NCBI GenBank assembly: GCA_017546585.1
Contig: JAFYWC010000024.1
Location: forward strand, 1 to 56,918
Reading direction: 5' to 3'
DNA from: Bacteroidales bacterium
Lineage (GTDB): Bacteria; Bacteroidota; Bacteroidia; Bacteroidales; UBA932
Length of the DNA stretch: 56,918 nt
Program-made: the position numbers and the translations under genes
Shown: in pieces, positions 39,422 through 40,699 of the stretch
How the letters are laid out: each line of letters opens with the position of its first letter
Numbering within the stretch: position 1 is the first letter of the stretch
Notes under the pieces: generated by a model
The model's input: the letters and a program-made list of their open reading frames with translations, nothing else
Told to the model about the DNA's origin: nothing
Databases searched by the model: none

Positions 39422-39463
39422 CCTGTGCGTGATGTGACGTTTTGTCGTCATTTTGCGCACAGG
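39422..39463. repeat. REP-like hairpin R1
   Basis: Left arm CCTGTGCGTGATGTGAC (39422-39438), loop GTTTTGTC (8 bases), right arm GTCATTTTGCGCACAGG (39447-39463). The arms pair over 17 positions with three G-U wobbles and one mismatch. It shares TGTGCG and GTGAC with R2-R4 and is the most decayed copy. Confidence 0.75.
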
Positions 39464-39508
39464 TGTTTTCTGTAACGTGTTGTACTACTGTGTGTTATAA
39501 GGATGCCT

Positions 39509-39546
39509 TGTGCGTGAAGTGACAGAATTTCGTCACTTCGCGCACA
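39509..39546. repeat. REP-like hairpin R2
   Basis: Left arm TGTGCGTGAAGTGAC (39509-39523), loop AGAATTTC (8 bases), right arm GTCACTTCGCGCACA (39532-39546). 15 pairs, one of them a G-U wobble. It lies 45 bases after R1. Confidence 0.85.
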
Positions 39547-39564
39547 CTAGATTAACTATAAGTG

Positions 39565-39603
39565 GAAATTTGTTCCGTTTTTTTAAAAAATCGAACAAAT
39601 TTC
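39565..39603. repeat. AT-rich palindrome upstream of the RAYT gene
   Basis: GAAATTTGTTC (39565-39575) is perfectly complementary to GAACAAATTTC (39593-39603); the centre CGTTTTTTTAAAAAATC continues the symmetry through T and A runs, giving a nearly loop-free palindrome of 39 bases. It is unrelated in sequence to R1-R4. It could act as a terminator or a cruciform. Confidence 0.7.
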
Positions 39604-39650
39604 TCTTTGTAAATCGATACTCTGCACACCTCTATAGCTGATTTTGGACT

Positions 39651-39681
39651 TTATCCGCGTACTTTTTTGTTACGCGGATAA
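39651..39681. repeat. Hairpin overlapping the RAYT promoter
   Basis: A perfect 11-bp stem, TTATCCGCGTA (39651-39661) and TACGCGGATAA (39671-39681), with loop CTTTTTTGT. The loop contains the TTTG that I read as the -33 box, so the hairpin may act as an operator or protein-binding site for the gene downstream. Confidence 0.7.
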
Positions 39682-39696
39682 GTACATCGATCTTTG
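39666..39696 (+). promoter_or_regulatory. Probable promoter of the RAYT gene
   Basis: TTTG (39666-39669) is followed after 19 bases by GATCTTTG (39689-39696), one mismatch from TANNTTTG. The message would begin near 39702, only about seven bases before the ATG. Confidence 0.5.
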
Positions 39697-39708
39697 TGCA
39701 AAAAACAT

Positions 39709-40560
39709 ATGAATTACTATCACATATATACTAAGGGACTTGAAGATCGGCAACTTTTCAGAGATGAGGATGACTATGTGGCAGCAATGAATTTGATAGC
39801 AGTGGCCTTCTTCGGTGGTGCGATTGAAATCTTGGCTTTTGTTCTTATGTCGAATCACGTCCATTTTGTAATTCGTGCACATCGGGATCAGGCGGAGAAG
39901 TTTATATCACTATTCAAAAATCTGCTCTCAAGATATTTGAGGTCACGCTATAATGAAGCAAAGTCGTTGAGACATCTGAAGACCTCTATAGATCCCGTAG
40001 ACGCCAGCATAGATGATATAAAGAGACTGATTGCATATATACTGAACAATCCGGTCAAGGCGGGTATCAACTGCGTTCCCCAGGGATATGAGTGGAGCAG
40101 TGCGCGTTGCTATTTTAATCTGATGGATTCTCTATCTGACACTGTGCCTATCAGCGAATTCAGCGTCAGAGAGCAGAGAAGGATATTACATTCGTATAGT
40201 AGACTTCCGGCAACCTGCCGCGTAAATACCAAAGGTTATGTTACACCCCAGTCTTATGTGAACTCGATCGCAGTTGAGAGGCTTTTCAAGTCTAGCCGTT
40301 CATTTGAGTTCTTTCTGAGTTCTTCCCTCTCGATTCGTAAAGGTGTAAGTGAAAATATAACCTTCAGCGATTCTACCTTGAATACTGCAATGAGGGAATT
40401 GTTGGAAAAGAAATATGATGCGGCTTCTATTGATGAACTTGACGACTTCCTTAAGAAGAATATTCTCAAAGATCTGAAGAGCAGGTTCAGTGCCTCATCC
40501 AAGCAATTGGCCCGCATTTCAGGGCTTTCTGTCAACGAAGTCATACGATATCTGGATTAG
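39709..40560 (+). CDS. REP-associated tyrosine transposase (RAYT, IS200-like Y1_Tnp)
   Basis: 283 aa from the ATG at 39709; a TTG at 39694 is less likely. The N-terminal about 130 residues are a Y1 (HUH) endonuclease: it begins NYYHIYTKGLEDRQLFRDE, the metal-binding HUH pair is H50-x-H52 in MSNHVHF, and the nucleophile is probably Y76 or Y81 in SRYLRSRYNEAK. YILNNPVKAG is the typical motif after the active site. The C-terminus (about 215-283) ends in a helix-turn-helix (SASSKQLARISGLSVNEVIRYL), as in RAYT rather than TnpA of IS200/IS605. RAYTs nick single-stranded REP hairpins. There is no tnpB and no classic IS end; instead two hairpins lie on each side. The gene is more AT-rich than its neighbours, suggesting transfer. 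Confidence 0.9.
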   Translation: MNYYHIYTKGLEDRQLFRDEDDYVAAMNLIAVAFFGGAIEILAFVLMSNHVHFVIRAHRDQAEKFISLFKNLLSRYLRSRYNEAKSLRHLKTSIDPVDASIDDIKRLIAYILNNPVKAGINCVPQGYEWSSARCYFNLMDSLSDTVPISEFSVREQRRILHSYSRLPATCRVNTKGYVTPQSYVNSIAVERLFKSSRSFEFFLSSSLSIRKGVSENITFSDSTLNTAMRELLEKKYDAASIDELDDFLKKNILKDLKSRFSASSKQLARISGLSVNEVIRYLD

Positions 40561-40572
40561 AATCTCACTATA

Positions 40573-40612
40573 CTGTGCGCGAAGTGACTATATTTTGTCA
40601 CTTCGCGCACAG
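40573..40612. repeat. REP-like hairpin R3
   Basis: A perfect 16-bp stem, CTGTGCGCGAAGTGAC (40573-40588) and GTCACTTCGCGCACAG (40597-40612), with loop TATATTTT (8 bases). It begins 12 bases after the RAYT stop codon. Same core as R1, R2 and R4. Confidence 0.9.
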
Positions 40613-40655
40613 GGTGTTTGGTTAACTAGTTGATATGTAGGAGGATATAAAAAGA

Positions 40656-40699
40656 GAGTGTGCGTAATGTGACTGAAAAATGTCACATTACGCACACTC
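40656..40699. repeat. REP-like hairpin R4, also a likely ffh terminator
   Basis: A perfect 18-bp stem, GAGTGTGCGTAATGTGAC (40656-40673) and GTCACATTACGCACACTC (40682-40699), with loop TGAAAAAT (8 bases), 43 bases after R3. On the minus strand the stem is followed by TCTTTTTATAT (40655-40645) and lies 25 bases past the ffh stop, so it can end the ffh transcript as well. Confidence 0.9.

Follow-up and report, generated by a model that had tools for sequence, protein, structure and literature searches.

What are the four hairpins that frame a transposase-like gene in contig JAFYWC010000024.1 of a Bacteroidales bacterium (lineage UBA932, assembly GCA_017546585.1), and are they the DNA on which that gene's product acts? 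We analyzed this contig over its full 56,918 nt (the window) and compared the locus with related genomes, for which we use handles for genomes (G), contigs (C) and loci (L). The gene resembles those for REP-associated tyrosine transposases (RAYTs; REP, repetitive extragenic palindrome), and a first-pass annotation, made from the letters of the window, had read the hairpins as RAYT substrates. The computational tests proposed along with that reading support it. On comparative grounds, we consider it likely that the gene encodes a RAYT, an HUH/tyrosine endonuclease of the TnpA-REP class acting on single-stranded DNA (ssDNA), and that the hairpins, arranged as doublets, are its own non-autonomous substrate, similar to REPINs (REP doublets forming hairpins). 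The doublet is a repeated unit, lies between genes at scattered sites, and occurs only with its RAYT among the genomes searched.

Each doublet spans 123 nt (hairpin, 47-nt spacer, hairpin), and two copies in the same orientation bracket the RAYT-like gene. The left doublet, flanked by a helicase gene on one side and the candidate RAYT promoter on the other, consists of hairpin A (39,424–39,461, + strand; an imperfect 15-bp stem with an 8-nt loop) and hairpin B (39,509–39,546, +). The right doublet, hairpin A (40,574–40,611, +; perfect stem) and hairpin B (40,659–40,696, +), occupies the gap between the stops of the convergent RAYT and ffh genes. The two align in direct register. All four hairpins reported by the first-pass annotation are present, and folded as ssDNA they are very stable (z-scores −6.2 to −9.9; 0/200 shuffles fold equally well for each). 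They share a 38-nt core, TGTGCG-N4-GTGAC-N8-GTCAC-N4-CGCACA, except that in copy 1 (39,424–39,461) GTCAT replaces GTCAC and gives a G-T pair; the common TGTGCG base and loop-proximal GTGAC described earlier are confirmed in all four, but the opposite arm of copy 1 deviates. The 8-nt loops have unrelated sequences, as had been claimed, although the folding program pairs two more bases in copy 1, leaving six, and also pairs bases within the loop of copy 2. Measured between the 38-nt cores, the start-to-start distance is exactly 85 nt and the spacer 47 nt in both doublets; the gaps of 45 and 43 bases given before came from uneven trimming. As for a known Rfam element, the search returned three sub-threshold microRNA matches (E 0.18–0.88), none of which reaches the gathering score.

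The gene between the doublets (39,709–40,560, +) encodes 283 aa from an ATG, with an NHVH motif, a tyrosine (Y110) in YILNNP, and a C-terminal helix-turn-helix (HTH)-like tail. Its match to Y1_Tnp (31.4 bits) passes the cut-off of 23; REP_Tyr_transpos is its best NCBIfam match, at 47.5 bits under a cut-off of 80. The Y1_Tnp score and the HUH and tyrosine motifs uphold the assignment of the gene as RAYT-like. H50, H52, Y110 and N114 are invariant across 20 aligned RAYTs, that of the window included, while the P of NP is missing from some; because the HUH and tyrosine residues are invariant, endonuclease activity has probably been kept by selection. Relatives with solved structures were absent at E 1 or better in a sequence comparison.

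If the hairpins belong to this RAYT, they should recur where it does, and the first-pass annotation had proposed looking for further copies and for relatives that lack the gene. In the window's own genome (2.49 Mb, 163 contigs, 95.6% complete), a search with the hairpin pattern allowing up to three mismatches found 12 own-type hairpins, all within six doublets at exactly 85 nt; eight of these hairpins, in four doublets, are additional to those of the window. The reversed pattern, used as a control in the same genome, gave no match. The four doublets away from the RAYT lie on C21, C45, C113 and C119, of which the C45 and C119 copies are degenerate (two and three mismatches). We then extended the search to 150 genomes (own, 90 congeners and 59 members of other families in the order). 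Matches to the window RAYT occur in 85 of them, namely the own genome, 77 of the 90 congeners and, weakly, 7 of the 59 from other families. The own-type hairpin occurs in two of the 150, the own genome and that with the nearest RAYT, G056 (56% identical). G056 carries 14 hairpins in seven doublets, again all at exactly 85 nt, two of which bracket its RAYT. No own-type hairpin is present in the 13 congeners that lack a match to the window RAYT, nor in congeners with more distant RAYTs among the 150. A scan of named genomes added two relatives, both Bacteroidales metagenome assemblies: RGIG7503 (G150), from water-buffalo colon, with a RAYT 92% identical to that of the window, and SIG154 (G151), with a RAYT 58% identical. 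G150 has six matches to the own-type hairpin, in three pairs at 85 nt, one of which is truncated where its contig ends; G151 has none.

The 26 hairpins (13 doublets) of the own genome and G056 define the anatomy of the unit. Their loops are 26 different 8-nt sequences with 77% A+T. The spacer forms an inverted repeat: the consensus of the 26 half-spacers, starting at the hairpin and going inwards, is 5 nt, TTTnTnTAA, 4 nt, TTGA. With its boxes thus inverted, the two halves of a doublet face each other head to head, as in a REPIN. In the window, positions derived from this consensus place one box (TTTnTnTAA-N4-TTG(A)) at 39,467–39,483 (+), reading inwards from hairpin A, and its inverted partner at 39,487–39,503 (−), reading inwards from hairpin B; the right spacer holds two inverted boxes within 40,617–40,653 (40,617–40,625, +, and 40,645–40,653, −). 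The outer flanks of the 26 hairpins show no signal resembling the box, no consensus like the GT[AG]G foot of canonical REPs appears in either the 26 inner or the 26 outer flanks, and no further secondary structure is predicted inside the spacer. Among the 13 doublets of the two species, mean identity is 74% for hairpins, 43% (28–55%) for spacers and 26–27% for flanks, so that the flanks of remote doublets are unrelated. Across doublets, spacing is better kept than sequence.

An alternative reading starts from the T-rich spacer boxes: the doublet might be a two-way transcription terminator, in which hairpin A and the inward box stop one strand, and hairpin B and the inverted box the other. The right doublet fills the convergent RAYT/ffh gap, both of its hairpins scanned as weakly terminator-like in the inward direction (2 found, 1.3 expected in shuffles), and runs of four T lie within 12 nt of 17/36 inner ends vs 2/36 outer ends. 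However, the T-run lies about 5 nt past the stem, and the left doublet precedes the candidate promoter of the RAYT. The nine remote doublets (four own, five in G056) all lie outside open reading frames of at least 90 aa, but only two sit between convergent genes, with five between co-directional and one between divergent genes and one unassigned; these mostly non-convergent settings indicate that the hairpins are more than terminators of neighboring genes. Nor would a terminator have to keep an exact 85-nt spacing, carry a TTGA box or be confined to genomes whose RAYT matches. We regard this explanation as quite unlikely for the doublet as a whole, while a side function of the hairpins in termination could still accompany another role.

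The first-pass annotation had proposed that the opposite arms of the stems mostly change to match. Over the 390 stem cells of the 26 hairpins, 92.6% are paired. Both sides changed in 16 cells, compared with a shuffle mean of 8.4 (0/500 shuffles as high), and a covariation score also lies above all shuffles; neither the count of doubly changed pairs (4; 329/500 shuffles as high) nor that of further pair types (11; 186/500) exceeds the shuffles. The covariation is real but modest, and, as the hairpin sequences are related, we take it as supportive and not conclusive. Stem position 10 is not Watson-Crick paired in 9/13 hairpins A vs 2/13 hairpins B. The base and loop-proximal stem are nearly invariant within one genome, so that the stem sequence probably matters to the RAYT of that genome. 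The replacement of stems between species is a stronger argument for pairing than covariation.

This replacement is seen in two genomes. In G151, a stem GTGGCTATAGTG, found only there among 8 genomes searched, forms 14 hairpins, 12 of which make six pairs at exactly 85 nt. In G021, whose RAYT is 46% identical to that of the window, a stem GTCGGCTNAGTGCA forms 8 hairpins and is confined to G021 among the 150 genomes; two pairs are at exactly 85 nt and one hairpin has no partner found. Upstream of the RAYT, the own genome, G150 and G151 align gap-free through the doublet, with new stems and the old spacer box in G151; by eye, the box is retained in both G151 and G021 despite their different stems. 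The idea that structure, not sequence, is recognized fits this comparison between species, in which stems are replaced but pairing and layout stay the same; it has to be qualified for the single genome, where the base and loop-proximal stem are nearly invariant. These data also bear on whether an extinct element left the doublets behind as relics, alike by common descent and without present function. Low copy number, slow turnover and the degenerate copies on C45 and C119 would be expected of relics. Neutral decay, however, would bring insertions and deletions, and the 13 doublets of two species keep 85 nt with spacers that are 43% identical; moreover, the paired changes and the different stem at the same position before the G151 RAYT suggest selection for pairing. 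We consider such an origin very improbable.

To see how general the arrangement is within the genus, we scanned 74 RAYT loci for similar hairpins on the same side of the gene within 110 nt (similarity threshold 10/11; 9/11 in an earlier scan). These loci are a non-random sample of best matches: 4 own-genome Pfam hits, 30 loci from the RAYT search and 40 further ones among the matches listed, these last taken mostly in rank order; G055:C114 and G049:C59 were left out for short flanks, and G000:C62 and G000:C123 were taken as own-genome matches. As a control, we used 49 loci (27 Ffh and 22 purE) that are not matched for base composition or coding flanks. Dropped from the control beforehand were Ffh loci L104, L107 and L108, which a RAYT adjoins, and purE loci L134–L141, from the own genome and its nearest relatives; four of the latter (L134, L138, L139 and L140) do carry a doublet. 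Control locus L127 was scanned with ill-fitting gene coordinates. A same-side pair is present in 34/74 RAYT loci vs 0/49 control loci, with smallest spacings of 51 (10 loci), 52 (17), 53 (2), 54 (1), 70 (1) and 85 nt (3). Similar hairpins lie across the gene from each other in 35 of the 74 loci, and either kind is found in 51. A repeat shared by both flanks occurs in 45 loci, and in 42 of them it is direct (38–208 nt, median about 95). Over the 51 loci, stem similarity correlates with RAYT identity (Mantel r 0.20, 0/2000 permutations as high): mean stem similarity is 0.84 above 70% RAYT identity (5 pairs), and below it rises only slightly, from 0.29 to 0.35 (random stems 0.26–0.33). Since stems of RAYTs less than 70% identical hardly exceed chance likeness, the spacing of about 52 nt is common to dissimilar stems.

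How does the doublet compare with known systems? We compare it here with what the portions consulted of the cited papers state. In Pseudomonas fluorescens SBW25, REPINs are inverted palindrome pairs with preferred spacings of 71 and 110 bp, extragenic and RAYT-specific, and singlets are read as decayed doublets (PMC3116915). The unit described here is likewise an inverted pair of palindromes with a preferred spacing (85 nt in 13/13 doublets of two genomes), extragenic and tied to its own RAYT, and the palindromes that flank the gene recur elsewhere in the genome, as expected for a RAYT. Unlike the SBW25 elements, each half is a full hairpin with a 15-bp stem and an 8-nt loop, inverted TTTnTnTAA-N4-TTGA boxes are present and GTAG is not, there are 6 doublets instead of hundreds, and the RAYT has 283 aa with a long C-terminal tail in a genus with up to 12 RAYT matches per genome. 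Escherichia coli TnpA-REP cleaves at CT, and the GTAG foot and a stem bulge matter for its activity (PMC8266576). Shared with that system are an HUH/tyrosine enzyme, a hairpin beside a short conserved motif and, here, an enrichment of CT at the outer feet; there is no GTAG foot, and the window protein has no Trp, as in the guide-reading motif W[QE], between its NHVH and YILNNP motifs. The missing Trp is in keeping with the missing GTAG, and W[QE] is not conserved in every subclass of TnpA-Y1 (PMC6006769).

Another comparable group is TnpA-Y1 subclass 2.6 of Bacteroidetes, in which 'atypical secondary structures' without GT[AG]G flank RAYTs and have copies elsewhere (Quentin et al. 2018, PMC6006769). 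The flanking structures here also lack GT[AG]G and have genomic copies, but subclass 2.6 has a median of 179 aa and a YIH[QN]NP motif, from which the 283 aa and YILNNP of the window RAYT differ. The portions consulted of PMC6006769 do not describe the doublet geometry, the spacer boxes or the turnover of stems. TIRYTs, RAYT-like genes with long terminal inverted repeats, some containing GGGGWSAS, form TIRtrons (PMC3733652), whose flanking repeats are, as here, unrelated to GTAG REPs, sometimes self-complementary and sometimes in dimers. In contrast to TIRtrons, the repeats here are mostly direct doublet repeats (the 42 of 45 loci above), and the two doublets of the window stand in direct register and not as terminal inverted repeats, with the caveat that palindromic single hairpins also match inverted. 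Near-identical copies of gene plus ends within one genome, as in IS200/IS605, do not appear among the matches listed for the own genome. In titles and abstract openings of the open-licence papers surveyed, for newer RAYT papers the first 15 of 146 listed, we found no description of this doublet geometry with stem turnover. The first-pass annotation had called a Bacteroidales version not well described; in this survey that holds for geometry and stem turnover, but the atypical structures were noted in 2018. REPINs and RAYTs are known, and what is new here, as far as the literature surveyed goes, is a two-hairpin frame of fixed spacing with stem turnover.

A further possibility is that the doublets are double-stranded DNA (dsDNA) operators, bound by the HTH-like tail of the RAYT for autoregulation or chromosome organization, with no cutting. 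The units are also palindromes in dsDNA, 85 nt is arithmetically about 8 helical turns and 52 nt about 5, the tail has a weak HTH_24 match (E 0.087, below cut-off), and G-T mismatches show no clear excess over A-C in the stems (17 vs 9; others 20). The region 5' of the gene speaks against it. A candidate promoter (39,666–39,696, +) with TTTG, 19 nt and GATCTTTG, matching what we take to be the Bacteroidales consensus, lies downstream of the left doublet at about 120 nt and has a palindrome of its own, TTATCCGCGTA...TACGCGGATAA (39,651–39,681, +), across its −33 box; this palindrome is found also in G056, G150, G151 and G021 and may act as an operator. An A+T-rich palindrome (39,565–39,603, +) is shared with G056, G021, G150 and G151 and not with G007. 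In addition, the invariance of the HUH and tyrosine residues argues against a role without cutting, and related enzymes act on single-stranded REP, as far as the portion consulted of PMC8266576 states. We think it unlikely that the doublets serve as operators.

Returning to the doublet as a RAYT substrate, we infer the following steps. Where a strand is single, for example on the lagging-strand template, both hairpins would fold, and a RAYT dimer would bind both hairpins of a doublet. The box beside each hairpin could supply strand discrimination and guide, the role of GTAG in canonical REPs. Tyr110 would then nick near the outer feet, where CT is over-represented, and nicking would rarely move or remodel the doublet. 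Counted over 18 doublets from three genomes, with the one on C43 of G151 missing, CT lies directly outside 14/36 outer feet vs 6/36 inner feet, with a background of 6%.

Several observations weigh against this account. The CT signal was chosen after inspecting the data, the ends are not all independent, and in G021 CT is, by eye, nearly absent (0/6 on the B side, 1/5 on the A side). The hairpin is nearly symmetric and its loop is not fixed, so that the hairpin alone gives no strand discrimination. Spacing and partnership are not perfect either: 3/5 resolvable doublets of G021 are at 86–87 nt, not 85, and 2/14 hairpins of G151 have no partner among the matches. Moreover, 23/74 RAYT loci showed no repeated hairpin in the scan, among them that of G007, whose RAYT (46% identical) sits at the same locus. 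Copy number is low, with 6 doublets in the own genome. No clean empty target for a fresh insertion of a remote doublet was found, and those with a counterpart in G150 include the two at the RAYT locus, C45 and C113; since most own doublets have such counterparts, movement is at best slow. Finally, the evidence comes from sequence comparison, ssDNA folding and statistics, and binding, nicking and movement are proposals.

Five genomes share the RAYT locus (own, G150, G056, G021 and G007): the gene adjoins ffh in the window, in G021 and in G007, and follows the helicase gene in the window, in G150 and in G056. In G026 and G066 (Ffh 94–95% identical), helicase gene and ffh are direct neighbors, with no RAYT and no doublet at the junction; both genomes have other RAYTs elsewhere. 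In G151, neither helicase gene nor ffh was found within 3 kb of the RAYT, so that gene and doublets sit at another place. Given the empty junction and this other place, the RAYT-doublet unit has been gained, lost or relocated in one piece. For single doublets, the comparison at C21 (L006 vs L168 of G150) pairs an own doublet with a single hairpin in G150, the own genome being 180 nt longer. By eye, the extra stretch ends at, or up to 2 nt from, the foot of hairpin B. We do not count C21 as a clean insertion, as a deletion at microhomology could also explain the 180-nt difference. The flank of C119 has no usable counterpart in 11 genomes.

A broader picture, which we put forward tentatively, is that the genus harbors radiating RAYTs, each with a private stem address set in a two-hairpin frame (about 52 or 85 nt) that a dimer would read. 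The stem code might drift quickly with the enzyme, yielding orthogonal ssDNA recombination systems and arrays of up to 16 units. RAYTs 92, 58, 56 and 46% identical to that of the window form a natural series in which the layout is kept and the stem changed in two, and these natural RAYT-stem pairs make a recognition code testable by stem swaps. The preferred inter-hairpin distance that unrelated stems have in common makes a specific structural prediction, namely a two-hairpin complex; the series also offers possibly orthogonal ssDNA endonucleases. In the literature surveyed, hairpin reading by RAYTs and enzyme-hairpin coevolution are little explored outside Proteobacteria.

RAYTs and their hairpins also recur in other forms. 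The own genome has 10 RAYT matches, and three others among the matches listed are 26–33% identical to the window RAYT; up to 12 matches occur in one genome (G054), most among the matches listed being 26–40% identical. A second own RAYT (L005, G000:C45) has 103-nt direct repeats with a hairpin of stem AAGCGTGGCAGATCC, and the identical stem stands beside a 79% identical RAYT in G026 (L091, G026:C42), giving another RAYT-stem pair. At L065 (G047:C36:4930-7307), 16 units repeated every 52 nt form an array 3' of the RAYT, and shorter arrays are found beside the RAYTs of L074, L045, L096 and L098. In the gap upstream of purE, the own genome and G056 have an own-type doublet (85 nt), and G026 and G066 have one of another type with a start-to-start distance of 72 nt. 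On C45, beyond the doublet (L008, 1648–1753), further degenerate GAAGTGAC and GTCAC cores precede purE.

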